Assembly: GCA_963669155.1 (NCBI GenBank)
Contig: OZ022588.1
Coordinates: forward strand, 18,158,438 to 18,222,437
DNA: 64,000 nucleotides
Direction: 5' to 3'
From: Arbacia lixula
Taxonomy: Eukaryota; Echinodermata; Echinoidea; Arbacioida; Arbaciidae
Position numbers and translations under genes: made by a program. Positions 7,855-41,754 of this stretch are shown piece after piece. The notes beneath the pieces were generated by a model, which worked only from the letters and a program-made list of their open reading frames with translations, was not told the origin of the DNA and made no database searches. How positions within the stretch are numbered: the first letter of the stretch is position 1; each line of letters starts with the position of its first letter.

Positions 7855-8260
7855 ACGTGTATATGTGTGTGTATGTGTGTGTGTGTGTTTGAGAACGTAT
7901 GTGCGCGCAACTGCGCATATTGCACAATATTAGCATGGGATACTGTGTATGACACCGTGTGAAAACCACGTATCTCATTTTAGATCAAGTTGGAAAACCT
8001 CGTAACTCAATTTGAAATGAGAAAACCTCGTATCTCAATTTAGGACTTAGTGCGAAAACCTTGTAACTCAAATTCCCGCTATCTAAATTTTTTTTTTTGC
8101 ATTTCAACCATTCCATATTGAATTGATAATCAAACATAGTCTTTAGTTAACATAAAAACGCCTATGCACATAATTTGTAGAAATAAGAATGTTTTTTCGC
8201 TCTCCTGAACATTTTGTTTTTTTGAGATACGAGGTTTTAACAGCCCACCGACGATATAAT
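6199..8260. mobile_element. 2-kb element with inverted ends and subterminal repeats
   Basis: The ends are inverted copies of about 38 bp (CGTCGGTGGGCTGATAAAAC, continuing CTCGTATCTCAAA, at 6206; its complement ends near 8255), with ATTATAT just outside on both sides. The end motif AACCTCGTATCTCA recurs as direct variants inside: near 6351 and 6391 on the left, and 7961, 7993, 8021 and 8054 on the right. The middle is a GT-rich tandem array with poly(G/C) runs. No open frame looks like a transposase, so it is a non-autonomous DNA transposon of unknown family. Confidence 0.75.
7215..7895 (+). repeat. GT-rich minisatellite with a longer-period unit
   Basis: Besides plain (GT)n at 7,788-7,850, a block with GTGTCACATG, AACGTTAATG and TTTTGCGTC followed by GGCCGGCGTGTG recurs about every 150-200 bases (near 7,320, 7,540 and 7,680). 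All open frames here are low-complexity artefacts. Confidence 0.8.
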
Positions 8261-9926: not shown

Positions 9927-10017
9927 TTATTCCTCCTTTCCTTCCAGGATCATGGCAAAGGTGAATGGCAGAAATGGATGGCCCTCGCCATGGTAAAACT
10001 TGCTTTGGAATTCAATC
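9927..10017 (-). CDS. ATP6V0A: V-ATPase subunit a terminal exon 20
   Basis: The last coding exon completes the W codon from exon 19 (TG/G) and reads [20 protein letters not shown], then AMILEGKEE and TAA. This matches the conserved end of subunit a (HW-V/I-EFQ-KFY-G-G-F-PF-F). The acceptor is CTTCAG/GATTG at 10017. Two decayed copies of this acceptor and the first exon bases lie just upstream in the transcript (10055-10168). Confidence 0.93.
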
Positions 10018-13000
10018 CTGAAGGAGAAAACGATGGTAAAATGATAGTAAAATGATGCTAAATCTTGTTCTAGAATTCAATCATGAAGGAGAGAACGATG
10101 GTAAAATGATATTTAAATGATGGTAAAACTTGCTCTGGAATTCAATCCTGAAGGAGAGAATGATGGAAGGCTAGATCAATATAAATTTGTCACATCATAC
10201 CCTTTCATATGTTCCTATCCACATAAAACATGTAGTTATATTGTATCCTAATGTTGAGGGAGGGAAAGAGGGAGGAAAGAGGGAGGGGAAGAAGGAGGAA
10301 AGAGGGAGGGAAGAAGGAGGGGGAGGAGGAAAGAGGGAGGCAAGAGGTAGTAAAGAGTGATGAGAGAGGGAGGGGAGAGGGAGGAAAGAGGGAGGAAAGA
10401 GGGAGGGGGAGAAGGAGGAAAGAGGGAGGAAAGAGGGAGCCGGAGAAGGAGGAAAAAGGGAGGGAAGAAGTAGTAAAGAGGGATGAGAGAGGGAGAGGGA
10501 GGGGAGAGAGAGGGGAGAGAGAGGAGAGAAGAGGGAGAGAAGATGGAGGGAAGATGGGGGGAAGATGGGGGGAAGATGGAGGGATGAGGGAGGGAAGAGG
10601 GAGGGAAGAAGGAGGGAAGAGGGAGGGAAGAGGGAGGAATGATGGAGGGAAGAGGGAGGAAAGATGGAGGGAAGAGGGAGGGAAGAGGGAGGGAAGAGGG
10701 AGAGAAGATGGAGGGAAGATGGAGGGAAGATGGGGGGAAGATGGAGGGAAGAGGGAGGGAAGAGGGAGGAAAGATGGAGGGAAGATGGAGGGAGATGGAG
10801 GGGAGATGGAGGGAAGATGGAGGGAAGAGGGAGGGAAGATGGAGGGAGAGGGACAGAAGAGTGAGGGGAGGGGGAGGAAAAAGGGAGAGGGACGGAAGAG
10901 GGAGGGAGGAAAAAGGGAAGAGGGAGGGAAGAGGGAGGGAAGATGGACGAAAGAGGGAAGAGGGAGGGAGGAGGGAGGGGAGAGGGAGGGAAGAGGGGGC
11001 CGAGTTCATACCAGTGGAGCCGGAGGGTGTGGAGGAACGCTGACATGCCCTCCATAAAGAGCAGGATGCCGACGGTGAGTACAGCCCAGCCCCCAAAGAG
11101 CCCAAACGTGGCGAAGGCACCCACAATGCCTTCCTTCTGTAGACCCAAAGATAGCACCATGGTCCACAGCACGTCAGACAGCTCTGTGGTGAACAAGAGA
11201 AAAACAGTTTATATGGTGAAAGTTCACTGTGCAATATATGTACAAAATACTTTGAATGCAACAAACAAGCCCTTTCTGCAGCTGTGGAAGGACAATGGTC
11301 TACACTACCTTCTTGCCCCTCCCACCCCCCCCCCCCCTCTCTCTTCCTTCTTCCACCCTCTCCTTCTCTCTCCTTTTTGATCTTCTTTCACTCCTCTTTT
11401 TTCGCCTCCTCCTCCTCCTTCATTTTCTGCTTCTTCCAATGGTCCTTTCCCACATTTTTTCCTTAAGTTTCTTCCCCTCCTCCTACCTATTCTCCTTCTT
11501 GATAATTTCCCCTTCTCCTCTTACTCTTTCTCTACCCTTATCGGATTCCATATATCCATGCCACCTCCTTCCTTCTCTACCTCCCCTGCCCATCCTCATC
11601 CTGATCCCTCTTCTCCCCTCCCTCCCCCTCTTCCCTCATCACCTCCCTCTTACCAGAATGTGCCAAGCTGAGAGCCCAGAGTCGTAGGTAGGATGCAGTG
11701 TGTGAGATACAACCAAGGCAGTATTCTATGGTGTGGATTGCTTGGTAGACAATTGTCTCCCCCAAATCAAACTGTTGAGGAATGAGATGAGAATAGAATA
11801 ACACATTACAAGGATGTTGAATCTATGCAAGCATAACAAGAAAATTGGCATTCATACAAATTTAAAGCCATGCCTCCTATAATCCTATTTCTTTGCAAAA
11901 TGAGTTACTGTAAAACTAGTAATTTTTGTGTGAAATCAATTTTTTCACAACACAAAGCAAGGGCATATCTAATATCATCGCAAATTTAAATCCATCCTGC
12001 TACTAGTATCTTTAGCAGGCTAGACACACAAGTCTCGGGGATTCAAAAATTTCTAGCTCTGATATTCAACTCATGCATGTGTTGCATGCTGTGATGCGTT
12101 GCACAGCCATCAGCTTTTTGGTGACATTAAATGCTCATGATAATGCTTTGTTGGTATTTTAATACATCAGGTGGATTGTTTTATAGAGACTAATATTTCT
12201 TGTGCGGCAAAATAAAATCCAACGAATATGTTGTAGGTATGGCAGTGCCACGAAGAGTTGGCATCATCAATTTTCCAAACCCTTTACGTGCTAGGTAAAC
12301 TACTGCTCTATGAGGTTTACATGCATTACCCAGGAAGAAATCCCTGCATAGTGCATACAAGGTTGATGATTTGATTTGATGATGATTTAATTCATTAATT
12401 TGCAAAAGCCACACTTTCCCCTTCATTTTCTGAATTTCTTTCACTTTGTTTTTTTTTTCAATTGGAGCTCATAAAACACCATTATTCAGCTCTGAAAAGA
12501 TTAAAGTCAATTAATTGAAATGATCAAAATGAAAAAAAAAAATGTTTTTTGTGAATGATAGAAGAAGATACCTTCCACTGGGTTTGTACACAAAATAAAA
12601 AAAAAATGAGCCAAATTTGGGGTCAGATCGTCTTGCGAAATTATGCGACATTGTGATGGTATATCTGGTCCTTGTGATTTTGGTCTCAAAAGTTGCGCAA
12701 GACTACAAAGAAAAAGGTCATGAAATCTCGCATTGACATCTTTTTGTGTTTCATAATGATTGCACAAAATATTAAGCCAGCCTGATAATTGTTAACCCAG
12801 CTCAATCCTACACTGTACCTCTTGAGTGACTTCTGGTGATTGCTGTACAGGTTCAGGGATCTCAGGGTCTTCTGCATCACTATTGTTCATGGCCAGCTCA
12901 TCCTGGTTGATGACAGCGTCCGTGTCAGAGGTCATCAACCCGCTGCCGTCTGCTGGCCCCCGATTGGTGGAGAACATGTACATCTGTTATGTGACCAATG

Positions 13001-14700
13001 AGAGAGAGTTTGTTACCGTATTTTTCGGCGTATAAGACGCATGTTTTTACCTTTGAAAATCACGCCAAAGTCCAGGTGCGTCTTATTCGCGGCGTTATCA
13101 AAAGTCGGGTCTTTACAACCAACATGTATACACATGTACGGGACTATGCATTGTGTGACAACATTCAACAAAAAAATATGGCTTTGATAGCCCGACACAC
13201 TTGAGGTAACGGTAATTTGTATTAGTCTGAGACACCTCAAAGACACCGCTAAGGAGAAAGCTAAGGCTCAAACTCCAAAACTCCGTTAGATGGGGGCAGC
13301 CGTTTTTCTTTGATCTCCGGCCATACGGCTTTGTATATAGCGCCATCTCGCGGCCGGATCAAAGCCCATAATCGCCGGAGATCAAAGAAAAATGGCGGCC
13401 CCCATCTAACAGAGTTTTTGAGTTTGAGCCTTAGCTTTCTCCATCGCGGTATCTGTCTCAGACAAATACTTGTCCTGGTGCTTTCTTGGTACCGGCAATT
13501 ATGCTGGTGATGTGATTGAAATCGTATTACCGGTACGTCAATTGTTTCAGGCTATCAAAGCCATCTATTTTGTTGAACGTTGTCACATAATGCATAGTCC
13601 CATAAATGTGTATACGTGTTCGTTTTATTTATTTATTTTTTTTAATTGCGTGCTCAAAGTTGGGGTGCGTTTTATCTACGGGTGCGTCTAATCTACTGGT
13701 CGATATGGTATACAGTGGCAAAGTAGTGTGAATGCAAAGCTGTACACACGCATCCATGTATACTGCTTTGGACATGTCACTTGATTATTTGATACATGAT
13801 TGAGACAGAGACAGAGAGAGACACAGAAAGACACAGAGAGACACAGACACAGAAAGAGAAAGAGAGAGAGAGTGAGAGAGAGAGAGAGGACAGAAGTGAA
13901 ATTGAAGAATGAGATTTAAAAAACAGAGAAGAGAGGAGAAAAACAGAGAAAAGTAAAGAAAAACAAATAGAAAGTTAGAAAGAGAGGGATGCAGTATGGG
14001 CACATGTGTGTTGTGTGAGTTTCAGAGAAAAGAGAAGAGAGAGTAAAGGAACAAAGAGAGGCAGATGTGTGTGTGTTTGAGAGAAAAAAGAGAGATGAAT
14101 GAAGTGAAGAATAACAAAAAGTGAGAGAAAGCAACAAAGAGAAAGATGGATGGATGGAGTGTGTGTGAGCAAGAGAGAAGAGAAGAGAAGAGAGAGAGAA
14201 AGATGAAGGGAGAGAATAGCAACAATTAGAGCGATAGAAAGATATGGAAGAAGAGAGAGTCATACAGAGGGTGCATGAAAGTGCTTGAGAGAGAACAGAA
14301 GAAAAAGAGGGAGAGAGGAGGGGAGAGAGAGGAAGAAGTGGGGGGTGGGGGACGAAGCCCGAGAGAGAATGTAGATGTATACTTACTCCTATTGGTCGGT
14401 TTCGATGCTGAAGGTAAAGAATGACTGGCTTGACAAACAGCATCCATGGTATGCACGACACCGCTACTAACACCAGGAAAATCTGCAGCTCACCCTGTAA
14501 AACATACAAGACAATTGCAAGAGTGATTGAACCAATTTGGTATGTTGCAATAAAGCAATTCTCATTAACATAATCATCATCATCATTATCAACTTCATTA
14601 GCATAATGTGAATTATGTTTTTCATCACTATCATAATCTAAAACTTTATCATCATAACCATCACAGTTCTATTCTTTCCTTCTAATTTTTGTCTTCCTCT

Positions 14701-14740
<40 letters not shown>

Positions 14741-14785
14741 TCTCATACCCTGTCCCCCCTCGCTATATATCTATGTTTATATCCG

Positions 14786-14818
<33 letters not shown>

Positions 14819-15229
14819 TTATCCATCCTTCTTTCCTTCTTAATTTCTCTCCCTGTCTTCCTTACTCTCTCTCTCTTCTCACTCCCTTTCTCTTTTCCTC
14901 CCTCCCTTTCTCTCTATTCCCCCCTTCTATCTCCCTCTCCCTCTTTCTCTACATTTTCTTGCTCTATCTTCCTCAATCTTTCTCATGTGCACCCCCACTC
15001 TCTCATTGTATCTCTCTCCCTCCTCTCACTCCCTCCATTTCTCTCTTCACCGTCTTCGCTCTTTCTTTCTCCCCAGTCTTTCCAAAACTCATAACCATGA
15101 ATCACCATCATTAACACAATCACTATCTTTTATCTTTTTCTCTCTTATTCCTCCTCTTCTCTCCCTCTCTCTCTCTCCCACTCTCTCCCCCTACATGTCT
15201 CTCTTCCTCACTTTCTCTCCCCTTCTTCT

Positions 15230-15279
<50 letters not shown>

Positions 15280-18200
15280 CACACCCTCTATCTTTCGCCT
15301 GGCCTGTGAACATGGGAGGATCTGGAGCCCCAGAGAGCCCCATATTGATGAGCGTCAGGATGAGGCTGGGCGCTGTCATCTCTCCTTCCCTCCTTACCCC
15401 CGTCCTCTCTCTCTCTCTCTCTCTCTTTGTCCACACTCTCTTATCTCTCACCTGGCCTGTGAACATGGGAGGATCTGGCGCCACAAACAGCCCCATATTG
15501 ATGAGGGTCAGGATGAGGCTGGGCGCTGTAGTCTCGTTCCAGACATTAAAGGCCAGCCACTTAACAAAGATCAGTACCACCAGATAGCCGAAGATGCTCA
15601 TCATAAAGATCAGCTGGGGCACAAACTCACAATAGATATTGATGCGTTTCTTGAAATAACTGCATGGGAAGAAAACAATTCAAGAACAGTTGTAAGACTT
15701 TTGACATAACTGCACAAATAGAGGTGAAATCATCCTCAACATAAATATTCACTATGACATTGTATATTTTCTGTTGACCAGTCCAGTATGCAGTAGATGT
15801 ATGTCCAAATCTATCTGGTTGCAATATATTTTTTCTTTTAATTACAGGATGGACCACACTTTCCATAAAATCTTAAATATCAAGTTGCTTTAACCACATG
15901 TTTTACCAGCAATATGCACATAAATGGCAGATGTATATCCGAGGTCCACGTCACTTCAACATTATTTTGTTTAACCCTCCAGACAAAATTATGTTCACGA
16001 GGATTCAGTCGGATAAGTCTCATCAAAATTGGATGAGAGGAGAAGATATCCTTTAAACAGGGTGTTGCGTCTGGCGGCGGTCCTTTCAGCCCCTGGTCCT
16101 ACATATGTAACGCTTTGATAGTCGTGATCTCGCATGCGTGCGCTATCGACAGCAATCTCTGATACAATACGGCGCATGTACACACAATGAGTGGTATGTG
16201 CATGTGTGTGTGAGCATTGCAGCATAGCCATTCAACCAAACCTTTGTGTAGCTTTGGTCAACTTCGTGGAGTCCAATCTTTTATGTTACCAGTCCGACAA
16301 GCACGAAACGCACACGAGCAATGTGTACAGATGAACGGCCTTTCGCAAATCCTGTACGCAAATCTACTCCCCAATGATTCTGATACTTTTAAGCATACCT
16401 GTGGTTGCAAAAGCTGAGGAAAACTCCAAAGGTCATCTGGCTGATTCCTAGGATCACAGACAGCTTCATCTTGTAGGAGTTCAGGAAGTTGATTTTGTTG
16501 GCCGCCAGCTGCCATATCTATGCATTTCATAGACGAAATGAGGAGAAGCATGATAATTATATTTGGCACTGTCCCATCTAGCATTTTAGCCTGTTCTTTT
16601 TACTGAGCAGCACGATTCCGACGTAATCTGCTGAGCAGACAATACATGACAAGCAACAAACAAATTTTAAATGCCTTATAGGCCACAATTATTCATTTAT
16701 GTATTTATTTTATTTATTTCCAGTTTTGTTTAAGCAGGGTGGCCTCTTCAGTTATACAACTGCTGTCACTGAGGGCCCTGACGGATAAAAGATACATTAC
16801 AATACATAACAACAACAATAACAGATCAATACACAACATATTAACATTACAGTATACTTAAGCCAAACCCTTTGGGTTACTGCAGTTCTGTGGCAAATAA
16901 GTGCACCAGGATTGAATGAGTTGAATGTCAGTACTGGTAACTCTGGAATCCCTGATTGATTTGCGCGTCCAGCCTGCTTAAAAAAGACAGGCTGGTTTTA
17001 AATTTGTGCTTGCTCTGTGTTGCGCAAAAAGCATGAAAATAAATGTCACACCCAAATTACCAGTTTTACAGTACTGTGACTCTACAACAGGTGTTGTACA
17101 ACTGTCTCTGCCTGAAAGACCTAGAAAGGTGATGGCTGACATTTACTATGCAAGAGCCAAGCAAATCACTCAGATGAACATGACAGAGAGAGAAAAACCA
17201 TCAACAGCAATAACACTAGAGCGTTACTTACTGGATCGACACCAATCGGGTAGGTGGAACCTGTCAGGGCGTACTTTGGATCAAGACTTAGGGAGATGTC
17301 TTCCTTGAGTAGAGATTCACTGTATGGATGGAAGAGAGACAAGCAAATACAAAGATAGATAGATGGAATAGGAGAGAGATTACTCCAAGTAGAAAGATAA
17401 GGACAGATAAACATAACCATTGTAGTTGTGATGAAGCCTGCAACATTGAGTACGCCAAAGTCTCAACCAGGGCTCTGTTACATAAAATTTACCATTGACT
17501 ATGTCATCAATGGTAAGTACCATGGAAACATCACTCAACAGCCAATCAAATCCAAGGTTACCATCAAAGGTGCCATCGCTAGCACAGTTATCATCTATTG
17601 TAAGTTTCATGCAACAGGGCCCAGGTTAAGATTGTGAACACCAGTATTATCATGACTTAAAATGTCATCATCGCCATCATCACAATCTAGATTGTCATCA
17701 TGATCAATACCATCATTTCATTGTCATCACTATCTATATAATCTTTATTATCATCATTAATCTATTAAAATAGTCATCACCATCATCATCACTATCTTTA
17801 TCATCACCAATATTTCACTACAGTCAATTATTTTTTTCCTCCATTTCATCTTGATCACCATGACTACAATCAGCTCTGCAATCATCAACTGGACATATAC
17901 CACATCTCACAGACAAGTTTTGAGCAGAAGCACTTACTCATAATTCATTGCAGTCGCGTTCCATTTAGAGCCAAAGATATTGAACGACTTGGAGAGACAG
18001 TCGTTGTAGAGGAAGCCGGAGTAGACGGAGAACAGGCCCATGAGCATGATGACGTAGCGACCACCGTACAGCATCCCAAACATCTATGAAAGGTCAAAGG
18101 GTTAACACAGGTCAATATAGAGGAAGGCTGGTTAGATGGAGTCATTAGAATCACGACATAGTGGGGGATGAGGATCAACAGATGTAACAAATTTTGGATG

Positions 18201-21200
18201 AGAAACAGGGATGATACACCAACTTCTAACAATGGAATGTCTGTCATGATTGTCATCTTTTAGAGAGCATATACGAATAATCCAGAGCCTGGGATTTTTT
18301 GCATCTTTCTATCAATAAAACAAGGGCTTAATGGCACCCCTTCAGGTAGCCTGACCACCACAAATGTGAGCTCATATGTAACCTGTGATGAAATGTCTCA
18401 GTAACGTTATCAATCAATCATGCCAATCTATGATAATAAATTTGTATTCCTTATAACTCTGCTAAATTTAGTTGCTAAATACTAATTTCAAGCAAATATC
18501 TCATTTGATGACCTGCCCTGAGCCCACACATTAAATTTGTTCTCTACTGCTCACCTCATGGTTGGCGAGTGAGGCGTAGAGCTGCTTCTCCCTGACGATG
18601 AGCCAGAGGCCGAAGAGGAACATGATGAGGCCATGGCCACAGTCACCGTACATCACAGAGAAGAGGAATGGGTAGGTGATGATGGTGAAGGGCGCTGCAA
18701 AACAAAATATCAATGGGAGGGTAGCATTAAAGGAGAACCAAACCCTAAAAACAACTCGATTAGGAAGCAGACTGGTGAAAGTAAGAGGCATTCATCTTTT
18801 TCACGACTGGAGTATATGATAGCATATATAAAATTGTACTACCGGTAAGAAACACTATGTAGAAAATAGTAAAAATTAGTAAAACTTAGAAAAATAGTAA
18901 CACATGGTATTACCAATGTCACTATACTTCCATACCTGGGTTGACCTCTCTGTAGTTGGCCACACCATAGGCATTGACCAGACTCTGGTAGACGCAGGTG
19001 AACTTGTTGGTCTTATTGTAGGTGGGCGGCTCCTCGTTGGTGGCGATCCTGTTCAGGATGGAGGGCACCGAGGATCCACTCACCTCCTGAGGGCAGCAGA
19101 CAGGGTGGAACGAGGGTGTCGATCAATCAAAAAGTCAACCAGTGAAAAATTCTCAATGTCGCAAATAACTATGAAATATTAACGCTTTACAAATTTTTGG
19201 CGTGTAAAGTGGTGAACTGGGCACTTCCGGTTCTATTAGAACGTTACACTTGCCTTTCCCAGTAACCCACTTTTCCAGAGGAATTCTTCCTGTAAGTTGA
19301 AGAGTTGGACTGTTGAAGAACTGAGAACTTTCTTGACTAAAAGAGGGGTTCCTTGAAATGATGCAAAGCACTGTGTGCCGGACTACAAGACCGGAAGTAT
19401 ACAGGTCAACAAATGCGACTGAAAAACTTATAGCTCTGTGTAAGGTAATATTTCACAGTTCTTTGCGATATTAAGAATTACATGGGTGCTAAGAACGATG
19501 AAGCCCCGTAAGGCAAAAAAGGAGCCCATGTTTCTCTTATAGTATAATGTACAGGGGGTCATTTCATGACATCAGGACCATGTTGCAGAATAGGTTTTCA
19601 ATTATTGTAACTTGCCATTAATGGTTACTACCATGGCAACAGGTGTAATAATGAGAGCTCATTGGCTGTTGCCATGGTACTTACCATTGATAGTAAGTTA
19701 CAGTAATTGAAAACCTATATGCAACATGGCCCAGGCTTGAAAATAACCCTCACAATTATTTAACCAGCACTCAATGTGCCTTTCTGGAGTAATAGTCAAA
19801 GGTTTAAGTGATTGAAATAATACCCACTGGTGTCAATCAAATTCAGCACCATCTTGAACTAAGATGAGGGATAGCAGTGGTAAAGATTATGGGCCCTTTA
19901 ATCATGGCAAGATTGCTTTGCCGTGACCACAGATACCATTTTCGATTCACTTGAAGCAATCATCTCAGAATTATACAATTATTGAAATCGAAGGAAGACA
20001 GGACCCGGAATGACAATTCATCCTTGATAATCATTACCATTATTTCCCTCATGAAAATAATTCTGTCCTTTGATTGATTAAGAGCCTTGCATGTGACCAA
20101 AGATATTCATACTATCTCTGATAAAGATACTACATGCCCTCTGAGCCCTAAGGAAATAGTACAATCATTTCACTGGCTGCTCCCGATGTGGCACATATTT
20201 GTATACTACTGCCCTTTAACTGAAACCCTTAATTGTCCATAATTTGTCCAGTCCCTTTCAACACTGATATTCACAGATTGAGTAATGATATATCAAAGAA
20301 TAAAAGGAGAGACTGACCGTGCCCCTCCGGAGGGCCAGCTTGATCTGGTCAAGGTCCGAGACGGGGCACCAGCACTCGGCGATGAGGCACTTCTGAGTGA
20401 CGTCCAGGTTGAAGAGGTTGAGGGTGTGGTAGATGGCCTTCAGTTTGCGCACCTTGATGAACCACACACGCAGACTCTTGGAGGCCAGAGAGAGAAGGCG
20501 CTGTCTGTGCTCCTCAGTCTGGCTCAGAACCTGGTGCAGGGAGATAAAGAGGTCAACAACATTAGGTGGAGGTGCACTGGTTTGTGTACAATACACAACT
20601 ACAGATGACAAGGCTATGGGTTCAAAACTCGATGAACCACACACATAGGCTCTCAGAGGCCAGAGAGAGAAGGTGCCGTTTGTGCTCCTCAGTCTCGCTT
20701 AGAACCTGTCACACGGAGATAACGATTGTAGTAGTTTGTGGTAGAATTACAATAAGGTTATTGATTCAAACCTTGATGAACCACACACATAGGCTCTCAG
20801 AGGCCAGAGAGACAAGGCACTGTTTGTGCTCCTCAGTCTAGCTTAGAACCTGTCACAGGGAGTTAGTGATAGTTGTACTGGTTTGTGGTTCAACACACAA
20901 CTACAGATGACAAGGTCATGGGTTCAAACCCCCCAAAAGAAAGGGTTACTACATACCTTCTGGAGGTCTTCAAGCCGGGTAAGTACGGCGATAGAAGTCT
21001 CGTTTCTCTCAGCAGCAGTCTCATTGCACGGGTACAGGGTAGCACGGAACCTGCGGTCGAGAAATATAAACACATTACAGTACTGGGTAGGGTTACAGAC
21101 AAAACATTTCAAACACTTTCATAGTCAATATCACATCCAGATGAAGGAGTTAAATCTATCATTCCAAAATATTTTTTTGTGAACAGTGTATAAAAAGAGA

Positions 21201-24200
21201 AAAGGAGATTTCTGTAAATAATGTGAACATATACTGTTCAAGTTGTTTGTGTCACAAGGTTTTGATAAATTGTGAAAATCGCAAATCATTGTATGGTCGC
21301 GAATCTAAATACACAAATATTGCCACACAATCTTGATGCATTTTGCTGTGCAAAAAGATATAAATAAGTCATAAGCACCATGTGTCTCCAGCTTACATCT
21401 GGCCTACCTGTATGTTTTTTCTCAGTCACATGTGTATACCCGTGCAGCGAGTTGCGGGGAGTGTACATGCAAACACACATGCACATTCTAACATGTCACA
21501 GAGCACACTGAATGAGATGGTTAGTTTTCCCAAGATCTTACCCCTCACAGATCTTCTTGACTCTGATCTTGAGCTGGTCTCCCTGGAAGAAGATGATGAA
21601 GACTGACTTCCATACCTCTTCTCCCTGCGGAAAGCAATCATACAAACAGCAAACATTACTTTCTCACTATCATAAGTGGGGTTGTGGAGCAACAGGAATA
21701 GGACACCAATGAATTGCATGTGAATGGGTCATTCCATGGGGTTGGGGCAAAGTTTTCATGCAATGTCCATATAAAAGAGGTATCAAACTTTGCAGTTCAC
21801 CACAAAGATCAATTCAGATGTGGTTAAGTTTGCTCTCTTTTCTCAGTAATAGACGTTAGAATTGGAAATCTTTTATGGATTTGAAGCAAGAGGCATATAA
21901 AAATATATCACTGTTACTACCGGTACATGGACATAATATTGTTTTTACATGGACAAGAAATTTTCAGAAGTCAAATTGCAATATGCCATGGTCTTTGAGA
22001 AATAATACTGGATGGGTACCCATTTTTTTGTTCATGCCATTCTTGGGACTATATTTGCCTGGTTTGAAAAAGATATGGATTTGGAGTTGTGGTATGTCAC
22101 AAAAATTGCCCCAACCCCATGGAATCACCCTAATGTGGCCGTTGCCTGAGGGTTGGGCAGTTAGCCCCTTTATTGGGAAGCTCTGATTGAAGCCATCCAT
22201 ACACAACCAAAATAAAGCCTTCAACATGAGCAGAATGACAATAATGAATACAAGTAAAAGTATACTTCTTTTCTCCAGAGTATACAATCAAATACCTCTC
22301 CGCGAGGCAGCCAAAGTAAAATCCATATTAGCAGATTCTGAATTGTAGCTTAAAACTCTAATCATCATTTTATTCTGATTTTTTGTATCCATTGCTAAAC
22401 TTTGTCAAAGAGACTAAAAACAATTCCTGAGTTCTCTGACACACCAAATCCTGAGACATCCTGCTTGGAATGTAGCCCATTTCAAACAATTTTTTTTTTC
22501 ATATTTCACCTGACGTGTATACCATTTGCTGGTGAAGAATCAACAGAATATCCAATATCCTTACAATATGAGTAACATAACAGTTCAAAGTTTCCCATAA
22601 TAAAAAAGGATACCTTAAGTACTGAAAACTGGTACTTAGATTTTCTTTAATCCCCACCATGTGCAAACAGCACTCTCATTTATGGATCTATTCTTTAGCA
22701 CCACAATAGCCTTGTGTCAATACACTGTATGCACAATCAATATTTTCACCTCATTAAATTCAGCAGTTCGGTCATTCCCTGATCTTACTGTCATTATATA
22801 AACATTTCAAAGTCCATGTTGTTAGCATCATATTTCAATAGTGGTACGTTAAAGGTCAGGGGTAGGAGAGGCAATGATTATGTGCCGTGATCATGACAGA
22901 GTTTTCCTGCTTGGTCCGTATTTTCTTTCATTGTTAGAATTTTTAGATTGTTCCTTCCGGGTATCCTGAAGTTCAATCAGAATAGGAACCATGGTCACTG
23001 TAAAACGGCACTACACTTTTAATGGGTCCTGTAGTCTTTTCCACTTCTAATGTTTTGTTTTTCTTTCATCAATGTAGTTAAAGATATATTTTTTATAATT
23101 GGTTTAAAATTGATAATCAATTTTTGATAAAATTCATTTTTTGTTCAAAGGGGTCCAGATGACAAACTGGTTTGGGGGGACTCCTCCACAGTCTCAGCAT
23201 TATCATTACTATTTTTTCACTGCTTGGTGTATTTATTTGATGTATGTTTATCAAGCTATGTTTGTATTATTGTATTTACTTCCAGTTGAAAATAGAAATT
23301 CATAGAAAATAATTACAAAAATTACCAAAATCACCAGTTACCTTTAGTTAGAGAGGTAGAGAATTGTAAAGAAGCAGAGACAACACAATATACAAGTTTG
23401 GAGATTCACCATGGTCAGAAGGTTCCCTAAACTACAACATACAAGCATGCAAACAGGCTGTAATAGTGTAGTCATGCTTGTTGATATGTATCCACTCAAG
23501 CTCAGTTGTAATAGGATCACTACATGTACGATTGTATGAGCAGCTTTTCTTTCAAACTCTTAAAGACAGCCCGTCCCTTTTCAGATCACCACCAAACCAT
23601 CGAAACATTGTCAAAACATATAAAGAAATGTTAGCAAGCTGTATATTCATAATTTGAAATTGACACGTAGTGTAAAATTCAAATAATGCATGTAAACAAC
23701 GTCTGATTAATAGTCTTTACCTCAGGCTCTTAGCAGTTTGTGTTGAAATATCTGCTTTATTGATTAATCTGTTTATTAAATCATAAAACGCATTATGAAA
23801 AAAAAATTGTTCTATAGAAGGAATCATCTCCAAAGATTGGTAATTACTCATAAAATTTGGATTTCACACATGCATAATAACCACATAGATACTGTAACAA
23901 AGACTAATACTTTTTTCGTAGTACGAAAAAAGTCGGTTTGAAAAGTTAACGGCTGAAATTTTTACATATACAGAAAGCGTCAACATGCTATATTCTTAGA
24001 AATGGTCTTGAATCACACTTTCTTCAATTTACGATCGTGGTAAACGATTTCAAATTTTAAGCTTGCAAAAGGGACGGACAATCTTTAAAGGGACAGTTCA
24101 CCCTGAAATTAAGTTTGTTTCAATAATGGCAGACACATGAAAGAAACACATTAATGAAGTTATCATGAAAATCCGTCAAAGAATAATGAAGTTCATGTTT

Positions 24201-27200
24201 TTAAGTTTTGGATTATGTGATATCACATGCGAGGTGATCTTCTACATGTTGTGTACAATTCTTTTTCAAAAATGAGTATTTTCTCCAAAAAAAATATGCA
24301 TCCTTGTACCTGTGTATTTAATACATCATTAGAAATATGTTTTAATACACATACCTGTATGAAAAAAAAAATCATTCCATTGTCAAAAACAGAAAAAAAG
24401 CAATTCATGTAATTATATTGTTTATTGGAGAGCACCTCACACGTGATGTCACAAAATTGAAATTTCAAAAGATCATAACTTTCTTACCTTTGACAGATTT
24501 TTGTCAAACCTTCATTGATACTTTTTTCATGTGTGTCAGCTTTTATTGCAACCAACTTATCTTCAGGGTGAACTATCCCTGTAACAAAATAGATATGAAT
24601 GTTTCTTTATAGTAGCTACATTGTACAGTTGTATAAAGCACATTAAGGCTGATAAACAATCATCAGAACCTCATCACTTTGATTGCATGGTACAGGTAAT
24701 TTTATGCAACTTTTTATCCCATATTACATGTATTTATCTCCAAGAATGAAATCATGAAAGTAGCAATACTGCCCAAATCTTTATATAGTACCAAAGTGTG
24801 ACATCATATGGGCCATTTCATGGTCACGCGAGTCACGCATGCTGTGTCTTATGAGTCACATGTCAGGGTATAGATGATTGATTTACTTGAACGAGTAATG
24901 GATTCAGCTCCAATATTTTCTAAGTTTTGACCTCGAACCTTGTTTGTGAATTGTGTGACATGAAAAATGTGTGACTCGCGTGACATTTACATGGAATGGC
25001 CCATATGAGCATACTGTCAAGACAACTGGTTCTATCAAACTATGTGGGTAGAGCAAGCAGCAGTGATCACATCATGGACTCGCATTAGGAGTGCCCGATC
25101 TCTCTCTTGAGTGATGTTGTTATGAGACAGAAATCATAAGAATAGATTTGACGACACCACTGCAGTACGCTACAGTCCTCAAACTCGGTCAGAAAGTCAT
25201 GGTTAGGAATAACTCACATTTTTTGTGATGCAGCCATTGTTTTTTCAGCTAATCTTCGTATCTAGCATTACAGTATTTACTTTAAGATGGCTGTATTGCA
25301 GGGGTTATCTTATCTTATATAAACAATATGTAGACTCAAGTCATCGTGGAAATATTTGATCAGTGGGCAAGTCTCTTTGTACTGGCCTGAATCTATTTAA
25401 TTGGTTTGTAATCAAGTGTCTGACAACATCTCTTCTTTTGTGTTGGGAAACGTAAGCAGTATAGTAGACACCAGAGAAAAAAGTCAGGAGCCTTGATCAT
25501 GAACCTTACTAGCTCTTTATGCGGCTCCTTTGCACATTTCCATGATTGGCGCAGCAGCTTACGTGCAAATTTGCACAGATCCCCACAAGTCTATTATGTG
25601 TGCTTACACAAAAATTTATGGTAGAAGAAAATTAATAATAATTTATAAATCCTTAAAACAAATACAAATGCATGAGTGAAGATGATTATATCGATGAATG
25701 AAAAATGAACGAAATTAGTCAAACATTGGAACAAAATACACAAACCTGTAAGATTGATTAAAGACAGGGTATCCCACAGTCATGAAACTCGGCAGGAATC
25801 AGCAATATGCAATACCTACAACGTGTGTGAAATTTCAATCATAGCCTCACGAATCTTTACAGGAAAAATGAAAAATTATCCTTGTTTATGTTTGAAACCA
25901 GGTCTACTTTCACATTCGTATAGGCCCTGTCAGTGAGCGGGCCGCGGGCATGCTCCCATTGAACGCACGCACTGTGGTGTGGACCATAGTGCACAGCAGT
26001 CTCTGGTCTCTAGCTTATATGTTTCGGATGACCAGCCCAAAACCTCCTCAAAATCTAGCAATTGCTATTATTTTGCTTTAAGTCAGTTTCTAGTTTAATC
26101 ATTGGGAGCGAAGTTCTGATACAGTATCTTCTTCCATTTTCTGTGGCTTTTACACAATTTAATCTTTTTGACCTTCAAAAGGGACTCCCAGTCTTTAAAG
26201 ACGTATAACTAAATAGACTACATTTAGCCAATATTGGGATCTTACTGTGCTGGGGTCTTTGAGAGGTTCTTGAATCTCTGCTTGACGGAGGAAGACGTTG
26301 CCACGGCAAACTCGCCACAGCATCTGTTCAAAGGCTGGGATGCGCTCACGGCGGATCACTCCGGTCACAAAGCTGAGAGGGGCAGAGTACAGGGGAAAAG
26401 TTTGGACATGGTAAATGTACACCTCTTTATCCCCCCTTCGCTACATCCTTGTAACAGTGATACACATAACATTCCATTTTCATCATGAATGCACATTTTA
26501 TGCACATCATTAGCAATACATTACTAATTAGATCCCCAAAGTTTGTCAGAGGTATAGATTATCTGATACACACAACTGTTTAAATCCAAATTTGTCCAAA
26601 TGTTAAAATCTCATTAAATATTCACAGGATTACTACAAGAAAAGTAATTGATGAAATGTCACAAAATCTGCTTCGAAAAAAATTCGCATCCCTTGACTTT
26701 ATGCTATGTTAACATCAGCTGGATACAAGTTGTAATTTATTTTCAATTACTTTCCAAGATGTCTAAAGGATTTTCTTAACACCTTGTACCACACATACAT
26801 TTGGTGACTTTCCCCTGATGGTCTATAATAAAAAACAGCTTCTTACTCACCCTAACTGCATGTCAGAAAATCCAAAAGCCTCATCAGGACGATTCCCCTG
26901 CAAAAGATAAATTTTTAAAAATGAGTATAGCAGAAACAACGACCAACAAACATTGTGAAGCAAGCATCTCACATCTTCAATTTGAGTTAAGCTAGTAACA
27001 GCAACTTTCACTCTACATTGGTGTTTCTTACCTGTATAACACTTGTTGTATAACACTTTCATGATCACTGGGGTCTTACATGTTCTCTCCCCTCACCTCC
27101 CTTTCTTTCAGATCTTACATTTATCTACCCCTCCTCTCTCTCTGTCCCTCTCACTCTCTGTCTCTCTCTCTCTGTCCCTCCCTCCCTCCTTCCCTTCCTC

Positions 27201-27642
27201 ATTTGCCCACTCTCTCTCCCTCTTTGCTCACTGATTCTTTTCTATCTCTCCATCTCTACATCTGTCTACCTCTTTTTCTCTTTCCTCTCTCTCTAAAACA
27301 CCCTCATACTCCCTCTCACTTTGTTTCCACAGGACTGTCTTCCTTTTGTTCAACACGATAAATCCTTATTCTTTCAAGCTACAACTCCTCTTACCTAATA
27401 TCCTCTCTCTCTCTCTCCCTGTTCTCAGTGTTCATTCCTGTTCCATCTCTCTCTCTCCCTTCCTATCCTTCAATCCCTCTCTCTGTTTCTGTCTCTCAGT
27501 CTCTGTCTCTCTCTCTCTTTCTCTCTATCTTGCGCGCTCTCTCTCTCTCTGTCTCTCTTTCTCTCTCCCTTTCTCCATCTCTCTCCCCCCTCCCTCTCTC
27601 TCTCCCTCTCTCTGTATCTCTCTCTGTATCTCTCTCTCTCTG

Positions 27643-27712
<70 letters not shown>

Positions 27713-30700
27713 CTCACTCACACTCTCATGCATCCCTATCTGTCTTCCAGAGACGGTATGTCTTCACAAGTCTCACCTCTTGGAAGAAGGTCTGGGTGTT
27801 CTGCAAGATGTGCTTGAGTTCAGTCAGCTCCAGAAAGTTCCTCATCAGAGCCTCCTGGTTGGTATTCACCTCCTTCAACTCATTCTCTAGCTTCTCAAAA
27901 CATGCCTATGGGGGGGGGGGGGGCAAAAACAAGTTGTTATCACAATGAACAAAACACTACATCAGTTGGCAGAAACAGACAGAGAAATGGCATGGTGGTT
28001 ATGAATGTAGTCTATGGTCAGTGGTTTTAAATGTAAACAAGGATAGTTTTTCACTTATCCCAAAAATGTTTGTGAAGCTGACTGTGAGATCAAAACGCTT
28101 CAGCAGTTGGCACGAACAGACAGGATATGGCCTGGTGGTTATTAATGTAAACTATGGTATGTGTGTTTTAAAGGGCCCCTGTCATCAAAATGTATGTTGA
28201 GTTTTGTTGATGCAACTTAATACATATATAACAAAATCACTAAGTGTTCAATGGAAATATGTGTCTTAGATTTTAAAATAATTTTTCTATATTTTTTCTC
28301 AGCACTAATAAGCCCCGCCTCCAAAATATCCTCCAACTCAAGATTCCCCTTGTGACATCATCAAAGGTAGAAATTAGCAGGATACTAGACATAATTTATG
28401 CACAAACTAAACATTGCAATAACTACCTGCAAGTGCGTTTAATAGCATCACATAGCTTCCACATTTCTGACATAAGGAAACAATTATTCGCACATGAAAG
28501 GCTGTTAGATGGTATTGTGTGAAGACATGTGTTGCTCCTGTGGGCAGGTGGAGGTAGTCAGTGCAATCTTTAGTTTCTGCATAAATTCTGCTTATTTTCC
28601 TGCTAATATCTACCTTTGATGATGTCATAGGGGGAATCTTTAGTTGGAGGATATTTGGAGGCGGGGCTTAACAGTGCTCAGAAAACATAAAGAAAAATTA
28701 TTTTAAAATATAAGACACATATTTCCATTGAACAGTTAGTGATTTTGCTATGTACATATTATGTTGCATCAACATAAGTCAACATACATTTTGATGACAG
28801 GGGACCTTTAAATGTTAACAAGGATAGTATTTCACTTATCCTGAAATATTTGTGAAGCTATGGCTGTGAGAACAAAGCACTAAAGAAGTTGGCAGGAACA
28901 GACAAGAAATAACCTGGTGGTTACGTCACTACCCAATGAGGAGAAGATGCAGGTTTAAATCCTTCTGGTTCCAACATTTTTTCTTCTGAATTGCTTTTAA
29001 TTCATCAATAGAATGGAACATGATATCCTTATTATTGGATGTATTCTGTTTCAAGTTAGAACAAGTAAAGTTAAGGAATGTTGGTAACACACTTTACATC
29101 ACTTCATCCTTAAGGTTGTTATGATTATGTGATCATAATATACATGTGTAGTACATCAGATCACGTGTCTAGATCACAAGTGAAATGTTACAAAATGCAC
29201 TGTCATGCAACATCTGCATGTCCTTTTTCATCATATCAAAAAAGTTTTGATTATTTTCTAATCAGCTTGACCCTTTGTTTGCCAGATAAATTACTGCTCT
29301 ATGGAATCCATGTGTAATACTGGTGAAAAGAATACAATATATAGCAAATAAAGAGTTCTTACCTCCAGATCGATCATCTCCCTAGGGGCGGGGGCATTGG
29401 GGTTCTCTCCCGTGTTCAGGATGGAGATGCCGCTCGAGGTGACCTCCTTCTCAAAGAAACCTGTGCAATATTCATGTCAAGGGAAATGTTGGAAATTTCT
29501 ACATGTAGTTAAATGGACTCTACAGGAACCATCATTGCATACATTACAAATGGTTCACCTGCTCAAAACCAACAATCAGTCGCAAATACAGCAATGGAAC
29601 AATCCATGAGATGACCTCCTTCTCAAAGTAACCTGTGCAATATTCATAAAGTCAAGAGAAATGTTGGACATGACTAGCAAAATGGACAATTCAGGTACCG
29701 TCATTGCAAAGTACAAATATATACGTGACCCACCTACTCAAAATCAGCAAGAAGTCGCAAATGCAGCAATGTAAAGGGGCTATTTTCTCTGAATAGACAT
29801 TATTGATGCGTACTTCTTTGTTTAAATGCCACAAAGTTTGCTTAAACTCAGGACTTAATCTCAAACTCCTTTGTGAATTTCGGCCTTAGAGGTTACTTAC
29901 GCAGTCTCCGCTCCATCTCGTCACATCTTCGGACCTCACTGACAAACTTGCGCTGAAATGCATTCACATCTGGATTCAACTGCAGGAACATATGAAAAGG
30001 GAAACAACATGATGTATTTGGTATAATCATAATGCCTGGCATTGGCAAAACAAATAACAACCTGAGTTTATAAGTTTTATGAAAGTTTAAAGGGAAATTA
30101 GTTGTATGTACATGTACGTGTATGTTTGCAAAATCAATATAAGTAACTCTTCTATTTTCATTTAATACATTCCGGGCAACATCAATGTCACACATTTGTG
30201 AGTAGTTCTTAATACAGTCTTCTTTAAAGATTGTCCATCCCTTTTGCAAGCTTAAAATTTGAAATCGTCTATCACGATCGTAAATTGAAGAAAGTGTGAT
30301 TCAATACCATTTCTAAGAATATAGCATGTTGAAGCTTTCTGTATATGTTAAAATTTAAGCCGTTAAATTTCAAACCGACTTTTTTCGTACTACGAAAAAA
30401 GTATTAGTCTTTGTTACAGTATCTATGTGGTTATTATGCATGTGTGAAATTATTATTTTATGAGTAATTACCAAACTTTGGAGATGATTCCTTCTATAGA
30501 ACAATTTTCTTCATTACGCGTTTTATAATTTAATAAACAGATGAATCAATAAAGCAGATATTTCAACACAAACTGCTAAGAGCCTGAGGTAAAGACTATT
30601 AATCAGACATTGTTTATGTGCGTTATTTGAATTTTACACTACGTATCAGTTTCAAATTATGAATATACAGCTTGCTAACACTTCTCTATATGTTTTGCCC

Positions 30701-31153
30701 ATGTTTCGATGGTTTCATGGTGATCTGAAAAAGGGACGGGCTGTCTTTAAAATAACACTGCCATACATATAATTTATTTGTATAATACACAAAGCACAGT
30801 TCTTGCAAGTTACTTAAACATAAACTGTATCAATGATTCAAACACATTTCCATGACAACATCTACAATAACGATATATGTAGATTACTGGATGGTCTACA
30901 GCAATTTCAATTGCCAACAACCACTTCAGTGAAAGAAGAATGTTGCTCATCAGGATACTGGTAAATTAAACAACTTAAAAAACAGTAAAAAATGCACCAC
31001 TGGCACACAAAAAGTTCATTCATGGATCTGACTTACATCTCTAAACTGGACAAGACCGAGCTCTCCTAGTTCTGCTACGCAGGAATAGGCCGCCTCTGAT
31101 TGGAGGAAAATCTGTGCCAGGCACATCTCCTCGCTGCGATAAAGGGATCCCAT
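9927..31153 (-). CDS. ATP6V0A: V-type H+-ATPase V0 subunit a (116 kDa), 20 coding exons
   Basis: Membrane stator/proton-channel subunit a of the vacuolar ATPase: its N-terminal half is cytosolic, and its C-terminal membrane domain forms the proton half-channels beside the c-ring. Exons in transcript order: 31153-31037, 29979-29901, 29460-29363, 27905-27777, 26897-26851, 26372-26246, 21624-21542, 21050-20957, 20530-20318, 19086-18936, 18694-18555, 18083-17938, 17319-17232, 16517-16399, 15659-15452, 14494-14387, 12983-12819, 11771-11654, 11183-11012, 10017-9927. Every junction is GT-AG and the phases close to about 830 residues, the normal family length. Landmarks are GSLYRSEEM at the start, VWFIKVRK in exon 9, [13 protein letters not shown] in exon 11, and [14 protein letters not shown] in exon 18 with the arginine matching yeast Vph1 Arg735. 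The protein ends EGKEE and stop. The start ATG has A at -3 and G at +4. After that motif it reads SELSDVL where most homologues have AQLS. Which paralogue (a1-a4 type) cannot be told. Confidence 0.96.
10055..10168 (-). repeat. decayed tandem copies of the exon 20 acceptor border
   Basis: A 65-bp unit covering the last intron bases and the first about 28 bases of V-ATPase exon 20 (9,990-10,054) is repeated at 10,055-10,119 and 10,120-10,168. The middle copy has lost the AG. The outer copy keeps CTTCAG/GATTGAATTCCAGAGCAA and would splice in frame from exon 19, giving a tail [20 protein letters not shown], then PS and a stop, instead of the conserved end. Confidence 0.88.
10255..11005 (+). repeat. 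polypurine tract, about 750 bp, V-ATPase intron 19
   Basis: Nearly uninterrupted G/A sequence of GGGAGGAAGA and GGAAGATGGA units, starting a few bases after the exon 19 donor in the transcript. The sense RNA is therefore a pure C/U tract. Long open frames on both strands here are artefacts of base bias. Confidence 0.9.
11325..11640 (+). repeat. polypyrimidine-rich tract, V-ATPase intron 18
   Basis: A C/T-rich stretch with a poly(C) run at its left end that reaches the donor of exon 18. The sense RNA is purine-rich. Confidence 0.8.
11654..11771 (-). CDS. ATP6V0A: V-ATPase subunit a exon 18, essential-arginine helix
   Basis: This exon encodes 39 codons and one extra base: [20 protein letters not shown], then [19 protein letters not shown]. 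The family needs the arginine in YLRLW for proton release from the c-ring, and it is present. The acceptor is CAACAG/TTTG and the donor is G/GTAAGA. The sense-strand intron after the donor is purine-rich for about 300 bases. Joining to exon 19 gives SLAHSELSDVL. The usual family text is SLAHAQLSEVL, so the A and Q positions differ here. Confidence 0.95.
13011..13710. mobile_element. foldback element, about 700 bp, V-ATPase intron 16
   Basis: It starts CCGTATTTTTCGGCGTATAA, then GACGCA, a terminus I recall as common in MITEs of many animals. The right end is a decayed complement (TGCGTCTAATCTACTGGTCG, then ATATGGTA). A strong central hairpin has arms of about 65 bases (13,257-13,321 and 13,376-13,441; CTAAGGCTCAAACTCCAAAA / TTTTTGAGTTTGAGCCTTAG). 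Outer arms also match (TGACAACATTCAACAAAA / TTTTGTTGAACGTTGTCA). Confidence 0.8.
13795..14345 (+). repeat. GA-rich tract, V-ATPase intron 16
   Basis: AGAGAGA-type sequence reaching to about 40 bp from the exon 16 donor. Open frames in it are low-complexity artefacts. Confidence 0.85.
14685..15295 (+). repeat. CT-rich tract with (CTAT)n, V-ATPase intron 15
   Basis: (CT)n, a (CTAT)n run at about 14,786-14,820, and more CT up to the decayed exon 15 copy. Confidence 0.85.
15301..15384 (-). repeat. decayed copy of the 3' part of V-ATPase exon 15
   Basis: In the sense strand it reads [20 protein letters not shown], then PMFTGQ, nearly identical to the last 26 residues of exon 15 (15,454-15,537), at a period of 153 bases. 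The donor in the copy is GC (CAG/GCGAAAG), not GT (CAG/GTGAGAG), and the copy has no acceptor beyond GA-rich sequence. It looks like a tandem duplication of the exon-intron border. Confidence 0.88.
16690..16870. other. repeat-like stretch in V-ATPase intron 13
   Basis: TTTATTTATTTTATTTATTT is followed by GCAGGGTGGCCTCTTCAGTT and GAGGGCCCTGACGG. This looks like the reverse complement of the 3' end of a dispersed repeat (A/T tail first), but I cannot name the family. Confidence 0.35.
17469..17624. mobile_element. small foldback MITE, family 5, V-ATPase intron 12
   Basis: The ends are GGGCTCTGTTACATAAAATT and GTAAGTTTCATGCAACAGGGCCC. It has internal TTACCATTGAC / ATCAATGGTAAG and a CCATGG-type core. 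It lies about 150 bp from the exon 13 acceptor. Confidence 0.7.
17640..17830 (+). repeat. CAT/ATC-rich simple repeat, V-ATPase intron 12
   Basis: Repeated CATCATC and TCATCA words, no gene. Confidence 0.7.
19576..19733. mobile_element. small foldback MITE, family 5, V-ATPase intron 9
   Basis: A near-perfect 158-bp hairpin: GGACCATGTTGCAGAATAGG and AACCTATATGCAACATGGCC, with inner TTACTACCATGGCAACAG / CTGTTGCCATGGTACTTACC. The motif with CCATGG near the loop is shared with the copies at 1 and 17,469. Confidence 0.85.
20605..20860 (-). repeat. two decayed copies of the 5' part of V-ATPase exon 9
   Basis: The exon 9 border and first about 75 coding bases (20,457-20,530) are repeated with starts at 20,631 and 20,775. 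The copies read [20 protein letters not shown] and VLS, stop, [13 protein letters not shown]; both hit stops right after VWFI. Both keep an acceptor-like CTGTGACAG. The intervening intron text (CACAACTACAGATGACAAGG) is copied too. Confidence 0.88.
21724..22132. mobile_element. foldback MITE, about 410 bp, V-ATPase intron 6
   Basis: The ends are TGGGTCATTCCATGGGGTTG and CCCCATGGAATCACCCTA; TTGGGGCAA pairs with TTGCCCCAA. The right half, including TCTTTTATGGA and ATACTGG, is unique. It starts about 100 bp upstream of exon 7. Confidence 0.75.
23564..24084. mobile_element. foldback MITE, family 2 (AGACAGCCCGTCCC end), 521 bp
   Basis: TTAA flanks both sides. The left end is AGACAGCCCGTCCCTTTT and the right end AAAAGGGACGGACAATCT. 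It carries a 19-base perfect palindrome-like core ACTTTTTTCGTAGTACGAAA. A second copy lies in the opposite orientation at 30,228-30,746. It is in V-ATPase intron 6. Confidence 0.9.
24089..24580. mobile_element. foldback MITE, family 1, intron copy
   Basis: Left AGGGACAGTTCACCCTGAA, right TTCAGGGTGAACTATCCCT. The interior matches the copy at 1,412. It lies in intron 6 of the V-ATPase gene and starts at the very TTAA that ends the neighbouring element at 24,084, so the two insertions share one target site. Confidence 0.88.
24804..25007. mobile_element. foldback MITE, about 204 bp, V-ATPase intron 6
   Basis: The ends are CATATGGGCCATTTCATGG and CATGGAATGGCCCATATG, then GTCACGCGAGTCAC / GTGACTCGCGTGAC inside. 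The outermost ten bases are perfectly complementary. Confidence 0.8.
25762..26194. mobile_element. TTAA-flanked MITE, family 3, 433 bp
   Basis: TTAA flanks both sides. The ends are AGACAGGGTATCCC and GGGACTCCCAGTCT, an imperfect 14-bp inverted repeat. The family 2 ends are similar (AGAC-G---TCCC). It ends about 50 bp from the donor of exon 6 in the V-ATPase gene. Confidence 0.65.
27115..27715 (+). repeat. CT-rich microsatellite tract, V-ATPase intron 4
   Basis: Mainly TCTC repeats ending in a run of about 60 bases of pure (CT)n at 27,645-27,708, directly next to the exon 4 donor. Confidence 0.85.
27958..28925. repeat. tandem units of about 135 bp, split by the family 4 MITE
   Basis: CAGTTGGCAGAAACAGACAG...TGGTGGTTAT at 27,963 recurs at about 28,100 and, beyond the MITE, at about 28,887 (AGTTGGCAGGAACAGACAAG). 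AACAAGGATAGT and TCACTTATCC recur at 28,035 and 28,820. The array lies in V-ATPase intron 3. Confidence 0.75.
28172..28807. mobile_element. foldback MITE, family 4, 636 bp, inserted in a tandem repeat
   Basis: The ends are AGGGCCCCTGTCATCAAAA and TTTTGATGACAGGGGACCT, with TTAA on both sides. Inner arms pair too (AAGCCCCGCCTCCAAA / TTTGGAGGCGGGGCTTA; CTCCAACT / AGTTGGAG). It interrupts a repeat of about 170 bp: sequence before 28,168 continues after 28,808 (AACAAGGATAGTATTTCACT). Confidence 0.88.
28905..28995 (+). repeat. possible tRNA-related SINE remnant
   Basis: CCTGGTGGTTACGTCACTAC resembles a Pol III A box and GCAGGTTTAAATCC a B box, about 35 bases apart, followed by TTTTTT. Similar B-box-like text (GGGTTCAAACCCC) occurs in the repeats near 20,924. 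The evidence is weak. Confidence 0.3.
29611..29780 (-). repeat. decayed copy of the 5' border of V-ATPase exon 3
   Basis: GACCTCCTTCTCAAAGTAAC, then CTGTGCAATATTCAT, copies 29,441-29,475 (exon 3 start and its acceptor). The following about 140 bases of intron 2 (ending GTCGCAAATGCAGCAATG) are copied too, at a period of 172 bases. The exon part has a stop in the sense frame, so it is not usable as written. Confidence 0.85.
30228..30746. mobile_element. foldback MITE, family 2, inverse copy, 519 bp
   Basis: TTAA flanks it at 30,224-30,227 and 30,747-30,750. It aligns along its whole length to the reverse complement of 23,564-24,084. It lies in V-ATPase intron 1, so with the other copy the pre-mRNA could form a long intramolecular duplex across exons 2-6. 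Confidence 0.9.
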
Positions 31154-32159: not shown

Positions 32160-33160
32160 ATGCAAACAAATCTAGGTTATACGTTTTGGTTTGGGGATAG
32201 TGTTACCCTCCAATCTACAGCAGACAAGATGACACTTACAACAGCTGTCTGTTTGATGCACCTGAATGCACTACTACACATTGACATTTTATTACCTACA
32301 GGAATACACCCCACTCTGGATGTACATACTTATGTACACCATGCATTTAATAAATAAACTGAAAAATATAAATGCAAACAAAGTCAGATAATGCCATTTT
32401 GGTTTGGGGTTAGCATTACCCTCGAAATATACAGGTAGTCCATCTATACATTTTCAACAGCTTCCCACTTGAAACACCTGACTTTTGTATACTACACACA
32501 TTCACAAGAATACTGTACATAATACTGATTAATACAAAATTGTATTTTGTACTAAATCTAACTATAAATATGCAATTCAGATTTTGATTTGGGGATATTG
32601 TTACCCAACTGATCTAGCCCAGATGACATTTACAACAGCTGTCTGTTTGATATACCCCTCTTCACTACAGAACATTGACAATTTACTACAGAAATACATC
32701 CCTCAGTTTATAAGACCCTAGATGTACGTACATGTGTATTTGGAGATTCTATGCATTAATATCTATGAACTAAAAAGATTTTTAAAATTATGCAAACAAA
32801 TTGTGTCATTTTGGTTTGGGGATATCATACTGTTCAGCTCAAAATATACATGTAGCCCAGTTACAACAGCTGCCCACGAATTGATGTACTGGTAATTACA
32901 TGTACCTACATGTAAAGGAATAAATCCCTAGTATGTTCATGGAGCACTTTCTATACACTAACACTATTTAGAAAAAAGAATGCAAAAGCAAGTCAGATTG
33001 TGCCAGTTTGGTTAAATGGTGACAATGTTTTCGTTCAAACATGTCTAGATGACATTCACACCGGCTATAAATGTTCACAAGCACTACTACATGTACAGTA
33101 TACATTGGTGTTTATTAGCTACAGGAATATAACACCCAGTGCATGGAGAGCATAATAAAA
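32160..33160. repeat. diverged tandem array, five units of about 185-227 bp
   Basis: TTTTGGTTTGGGGATA or variants recur near 32,189, 32,399, 32,583, 32,810 and 33,005. ACAACAGCTGTCTGTTTGAT and CAGGAATACA blocks follow in the same order in each unit. It lies upstream of the first coding V-ATPase exon. Confidence 0.8.
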
Positions 33161-41690: not shown

Positions 41691-41754
41691 AATGTGAACT
41701 ACTTGGTTGTTAGCATACGCAATGTATCACTGACATATATACATCTCACCCCAT

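Follow-up and report, generated by a model that had tools for sequence, protein, structure and literature searches.

How does one gene come to carry copies of its own exon borders at four separate exons? The question is raised by a 64,000-nucleotide stretch of the genome of the sea urchin Arbacia lixula (contig OZ022588.1, positions 18,158,438 to 18,222,437; hereafter the window, numbered from its first letter), in which a gene for V-ATPase subunit a has one or two partial copies of an exon–intron border beside exons 3, 9, 15 and 20. The copies are very probably the product of four independent, ordinary head-to-tail tandem duplications (TDs) of 65–175 bases that happened to cross borders and were kept by the passive filter of splicing.

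The gene and its four duplicated borders

Joining exons through the reading frame and splice sites gives a gene 21.2 kb long with a coding sequence of 2,493 nucleotides (nt), the sole stop of which is terminal. An AG precedes all 19 downstream exons and a GT starts all 19 donors. The predicted protein matches the Pfam family V_ATPase_I (PF01496) over residues 28–821 (1064.6 bits), and among PDB entries it best matches a V-type proton ATPase subunit a, at 1152 bits over residues 1–828. The whole coding region for this subunit thus lies in the window, on the minus strand, and the 20-exon model keeps a single open frame that needs no extra intron between the copies. The gene model bears out the first-pass annotation of the window, which had described one V-ATPase gene of 20 exons and had numbered the affected exons 3, 9, 15 and 20.

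We aligned the window with itself by local alignment and, separately, ran Tandem Repeats Finder (TRF). At all four loci the copies are adjacent, on the same strand and head to tail, and the duplicated unit holds exon sequence, a splice site and intron sequence together; the exon and intron parts of each unit are given in Table 1. At exons 3, 9 and 20 the border crossed is the acceptor, and at exon 15 it is the donor. Periods are 172 bases at exon 3, 175 and 142 at exon 9, 153 at exon 15 and 65 at exon 20. TRF calls the arrays at exon 20 (period 65, 2.7 copies) and exon 15 (period 153, 1.8 copies), and makes no call at the exon 3 or exon 9 duplications.

In the self-alignment, the single copy at exon 3 matches its parent at 75.7% with gaps (29436–29599 against 29608–29774), and the single copy at exon 15 at 89.4% (15280–15382 against 15432–15535). 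Exon 9 has two copies (74.8% for 20453–20742 against 20628–20889; 76.3% for 20451–20626 against 20770–20928). At exon 20 the corresponding values are 86.6% (9990–10101 against 10055–10166) and 93.6% (9990–10036 against 10120–10166). Local self-alignment recovers all four copied borders that the first-pass annotation had noticed, and its description of units of 65–175 bases, each taking part of an exon and part of an intron and never a whole exon, holds at every locus. Its copy coordinates indicate the right loci and lie 0 to about 48 bases off the alignment ends.

Table 1. Positions in the window of the V-ATPase gene, the exons concerned, the duplicated units and their copies
Feature	Positions	Strand	Details	Basis
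V-ATPase subunit a (116 kDa, a1-like) gene, start codon to stop	9927–31153	-	20 exons, 830 aa	
Exon 3	29363–29460	-		gene model
TD unit, real exon 3 acceptor border	29436–29607	-	25 nt exon + 147 nt intron 2	self-alignment
Decayed copy of exon 3 acceptor border, in intron 2	29608–29774	-	copy exon start 29632, AG kept	
Exon 9	20318–20530	-		gene model
TD unit, real exon 9 acceptor border	20453–20627	-	78 nt exon + 97 nt intron 8	self-alignment
Decayed copy 1 of exon 9 acceptor border	20628–20769	-	copy exon start 20705, AG kept	
Decayed copy 2 of exon 9 acceptor border	20770–20928	-	copy exon start 20849 with AG kept; codon 4 is an in-frame stop	
Exon 15	15452–15659	-		gene model
TD unit, real exon 15 donor border	15405–15535	-	84 nt exon + 47 nt CT-rich intron	TRF
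Copy of exon 15 donor border, in intron 15	15253–15382	-	GC in place of donor GT; 15299 is the last base of the copy exon	
Exon 20 (last), coding part	9927–10017	-		gene model
TD unit, real exon 20 acceptor border	9990–10054	-	28 nt exon + 37 nt intron 19	self-alignment, TRF
Copy 1 of exon 20 acceptor border	10055–10119	-	AG changed to AT, two stops within 9 exon codons	
Copy 2 (partial) of exon 20 acceptor border	10120–10166	-	AG kept, 9 codons give identical protein letters	
Fifth TD, wholly in intron 3	27947–28923	-	period 141, 42 nt from exon 4 acceptor, border uncrossed	

The top-scoring alignments at the four borders, one per locus, reach 119–207 bits, whereas no local direct repeat in ten dinucleotide-shuffled, masked versions of the window exceeds 31.0 bits. 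The four alignments stand so far above the shuffles that the duplications at exons 3, 9, 15 and 20 are confirmed as real. Weaker border copies were sought at the other 34 borders of the gene (at least 28 bits, distance 30–600, low complexity masked) and none was found; the only other match within the gene in this search, at 36.5 bits, is an ATC-rich part of intron 12. Insertion of a transposon or introner would be expected to scatter similar copies over unrelated sites; within the window, the four segments have no copies outside their own arrays, with the exception of a single 26-base match (E 0.005).

Mutually exclusive exons are whole exons that have been copied in tandem with both splice sites and are kept under selection. 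They share with the present loci exon sequence copied within an intron, but here one border only is copied and the copy is decaying. Because a single border, and never a whole exon, was copied at all four loci, they are not cases of tandem exon duplication or of mutually exclusive exons.

The copies appear to decay beside a constrained exon

Copies differ from their parents by 6–25%, with gaps and nested periods, and the divergence is unequal among the four loci. Across six copy comparisons the exon parts diverge by 3.6–17.9%, with 14 synonymous, 19 nonsynonymous and 3 stop substitutions; these comparisons are not all independent, as the two exon 9 copies share several changes. With such counts we rejected constraint on the copies as the main reading. 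The splice dinucleotide is lost in two of the six copies (exon 20 copy 1, now AT, and the exon 15 donor copy, now GC). Four of the five acceptor-border copies retain AG (exon 3, both at exon 9, and exon 20 copy 2), and all five, including the one without AG, read into in-frame stops on the way to the real exon, to which they would add 172, 175, 319, 65 and 130 nt. Overall, the copies look as if they decay neutrally beside one constrained exon.

How border copies may arise and persist

Short TDs arise through slippage or unequal exchange, and we suggest that either process could have made the units seen here. At exon 15 the exchange may have taken place between CT tracts. At exon 20 it was perhaps at the ATGGTAAAA repeat; by eye, this word stands at the exon end of the unit, where the unit starts, and again in the intron. 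Inspection by eye for micro-repeats at the junctions of exons 3 and 9 gave nothing clear. This pattern agrees with a remark in the first-pass annotation that nearby tracts could drive slippage, with exons 3 and 9 as exceptions: the exon 15 unit enters CT tracts, and exons 3 and 9 have no tract at the border (by eye; TRF has no row for them).

What follows the duplication would depend on where it falls. A TD lying wholly within an exon alters the protein, and selection would remove it. When the unit straddles a border, by contrast, an entire exon and its functional splice site remain, and the second copy of the border lands on the intron side, where it would be spliced out and then decay as intron sequence does. 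Given units of 65–175 nt, such a filter would account for the intron-side position of every copy and for the lack of any whole-exon copy. All six copies indeed lie on the intron side of their exon. We infer that they are not spliced in vivo. TDs away from borders are also present, both in intron 3 and outside the gene.

Are exon borders hit more often than chance?

Counting loci of at least 50 bits with low complexity masked, the gene has five TDs: the four at borders and one in intron 3 (27947–28172). A CT-rich repeat at 14672–15046 (52.7 bits unmasked) was excluded from the count as low complexity. The intron 3 duplication is apparently split by a palindromic element at about 28167–28812. 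This element is 646 bases long and transposon-like, with an 82% match between its arms and TTTAAA-like flanks, and sits inside one copy of the duplication. Outside the gene, TDs are found at 32184–32877, 7504–7723 and 7958–8074, together with arrays of a 364-base unit described below.

Several results weigh against accidental placement with passive retention. Four of the five in-gene TDs cross one of the 38 borders, where random placement (20,000 trials, a first copy wholly inside an exon being disallowed) expects 1.54 (P 0.030) and a circular shift of the exon map expects 1.58 (P 0.036 for at least four); counting any overlap with an exon gives P = 0.054. These tests were applied to a pattern picked after inspection, with a single gene supplying the five events. 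None of the five is farther than 45 nt from an exon (P 0.012, the distance being picked post hoc). Gaps in the copy alignments are concentrated in the intron parts, which have 71 gap positions; the exon parts have 2, each at the end of an alignment. Fewer exon gaps are expected because only one copy is free to change, yet the contrast is still large.

Could exon conservation simply make border duplications easier to detect? With exons masked and low complexity kept, the intron parts still align at exon 3 (83.3 bits), exon 9 (159 and 70.7 bits), exon 15 (60.8 bits, CT-rich) and exon 20 (110 bits), so the whole border region was duplicated at all four loci. With exons and low complexity both masked, the scores at exons 3, 9 and 20 are unchanged and exon 15 gives no alignment; an intron-only TD of the exon 15 kind would therefore have gone uncounted. 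Detection bias can hold for exon 15 and fails for exons 3, 9 and 20, where it does not explain the border excess, a further point against chance placement. Once exon 15 is dropped for this bias, three of four TDs cross a border (1.32 expected, P = 0.12), and the excess loses nominal significance. There is, then, a mild excess of TDs near exons, a weak hint that is insufficient for claiming a mechanism.

Alternative explanations

A real mutational bias, in which an exon-, splice-site- or transcription-linked process duplicates exon edges more often, would account for this excess directly, as well as for the closeness of all five TDs to an exon. Of the intron positions no more than 150 nt from a border (5,641), TDs cover 11.9%, and of those farther away (13,093), 2.5%; outside the gene they cover 9.1% of 42,773 positions, or 1.7% without the two regions of 364-base arrays. 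The background outside the gene bears on such a bias in both directions. When the 38-border pattern is slid along it with these satellite-like regions omitted, none of 3,889 positions reaches four TDs; with the arrays counted, as three loci, at least four distinct TD loci are reached at 131 of 3,889 positions (3.4%). The window's second gene (two exons inferred) shows no TD, and the case for a bias comes from five events in one gene and a post hoc test. We consider this bias unlikely. The first-pass annotation had taken four copied borders in one gene to suggest a local mechanism or a tendency of this genome; that there were four separate, unequally diverged events stands, and the mechanism is not established (P 0.03–0.05, and 0.12 without exon 15). 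Quite improbable, in our judgement, is the broader proposal that this genome has a hotspot of short TDs at its exon edges and that the gene displays the raw material of splice variants at successive ages, from near-intact (exons 20 and 15) to decaying.

Alternatively, the copies might be functional duplicated splice sites, acting as alternative or decoy sites that yield isoforms. The top candidates are exon 20 copy 2 and the exon 15 copy. Against a profile built from the gene's other 18 acceptors (the parent site left out), the acceptor of exon 20 copy 2 scores 11.7, compared with 7.5 for the real exon 20 acceptor, and it sits 130 nt upstream of the real one. Because it keeps this higher-scoring AG and lies upstream, an alternative C-terminus is a fair prediction from the sequence: after the shared IEFQSKFYH, 12 residues would take the place of 20. 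Transcripts whose stop lies in the last exon can escape nonsense-mediated decay, and this is where the stop of the copy falls, so decay need not act on the predicted transcript.

The exon 15 copy has its donor 153 nt downstream, the frame stays open over these 51 codons, and 25 of the 28 copied residues are kept; if its weak GC donor were used, it would add 51 residues in frame. However, this donor stands in a weak context (0.8, compared with 9.8 for the real donor), and about half of the added peptide would be translated GA-rich intron. The copies at exons 3 and 9 run into stops, and one of the exon 20 copies lacks AG. The exon 20 and exon 15 copies might thus give rare isoforms; that the copies in general serve as functional sites is very unlikely.

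Finally, marine invertebrate genomes are often highly heterozygous and their assemblies can hold local false duplications, but an artefact of wrongly joined haplotypes or repeats has a vanishingly small probability here, given that the divergence of the copies, with its gaps and nested periods, is above usual allelic divergence and unequal among the four loci, and that a transposon-like palindrome lies inside the fifth TD.

Other elements in the window

The introns of the V-ATPase gene contain further repeats. In intron 19, about 740 bases of a polypurine GAGGGAGGGAA repeat (10256–10997) lie just upstream of the exon 20 array. Intron 16 holds an imperfect palindrome of 514 bases (13114–13627, 70%), and other palindromes in the window occur at 1442–1862 and 19575–19732. 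Introns 6 (23560–24090) and 1 (30222–30750) carry inverted copies of a transposon-like stretch that match at 93.6% over 532 bases.

Beyond the gene, tandem arrays of the 364-base unit flank both sides of an open reading frame of 1,046 residues (42157–45297) within 40139–48631. This reading frame has the domains Exo_endo_phos and RVT_1, and its N-terminus is PHD-like, with a score of 22.9 bits, just below the Pfam cut-off. The arrays on one side run opposite to those on the other, with an 83% match between them over 1.36 kb; therefore the whole of 40139–48631 forms a large inverted repeat, which we take to be reminiscent of the TU foldback elements of sea urchins. Telomere-like TAACCC repeats are found at interstitial sites (36448–36527 and 63316–63390). 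On the plus strand, 61900–63100 contains the probable start of a protein O-mannosyltransferase-like gene, whose exon 2 matches PF02366 (E 1.9e-16) and whose exon 1 is placed from the reading frame only.

Relation to known duplications and implications

Duplications that cross an exon border have been described in the context of intron gain. In a potato RNA-dependent RNA polymerase gene, a TD across the boundary of intron 1 and exon 2 is reported to have yielded a new intron (Ma, Lan and Niu 2016, PMC4974935). Three of the four loci described here (exons 3, 9 and 20) have the same anatomy as that event, and exon 15 is its mirror case, at a donor. They differ in outcome: the new potato intron took its donor from a cryptic site recruited in the upstream exon, whereas the copies found here lie inside an existing intron. 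A review places tandem genomic duplication among the mechanisms of intron gain and counts 188 unambiguously identified events (PMC3443670). The Rogers model, as set out there, also invokes short TDs of gene segments that hold splice-site sequence; in that model an exonic AGGT is duplicated and a new intron results, whereas the present loci duplicate a border that already existed and show no evident intron gain. They add further border-crossing TDs to those already described.

The loci counsel caution in annotation, as gene finders may call border copies alternative exons. Were exon edges truly more prone to duplication than the rest of the sequence, copying would provide a route to new alternative splice sites, at a rate that could be measured. 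We suggest that the locus mainly illustrates a filter: border TDs can survive since splicing discards the copy, and for this reason no special mechanism would be needed for one long gene to carry border copies at several of its exons.

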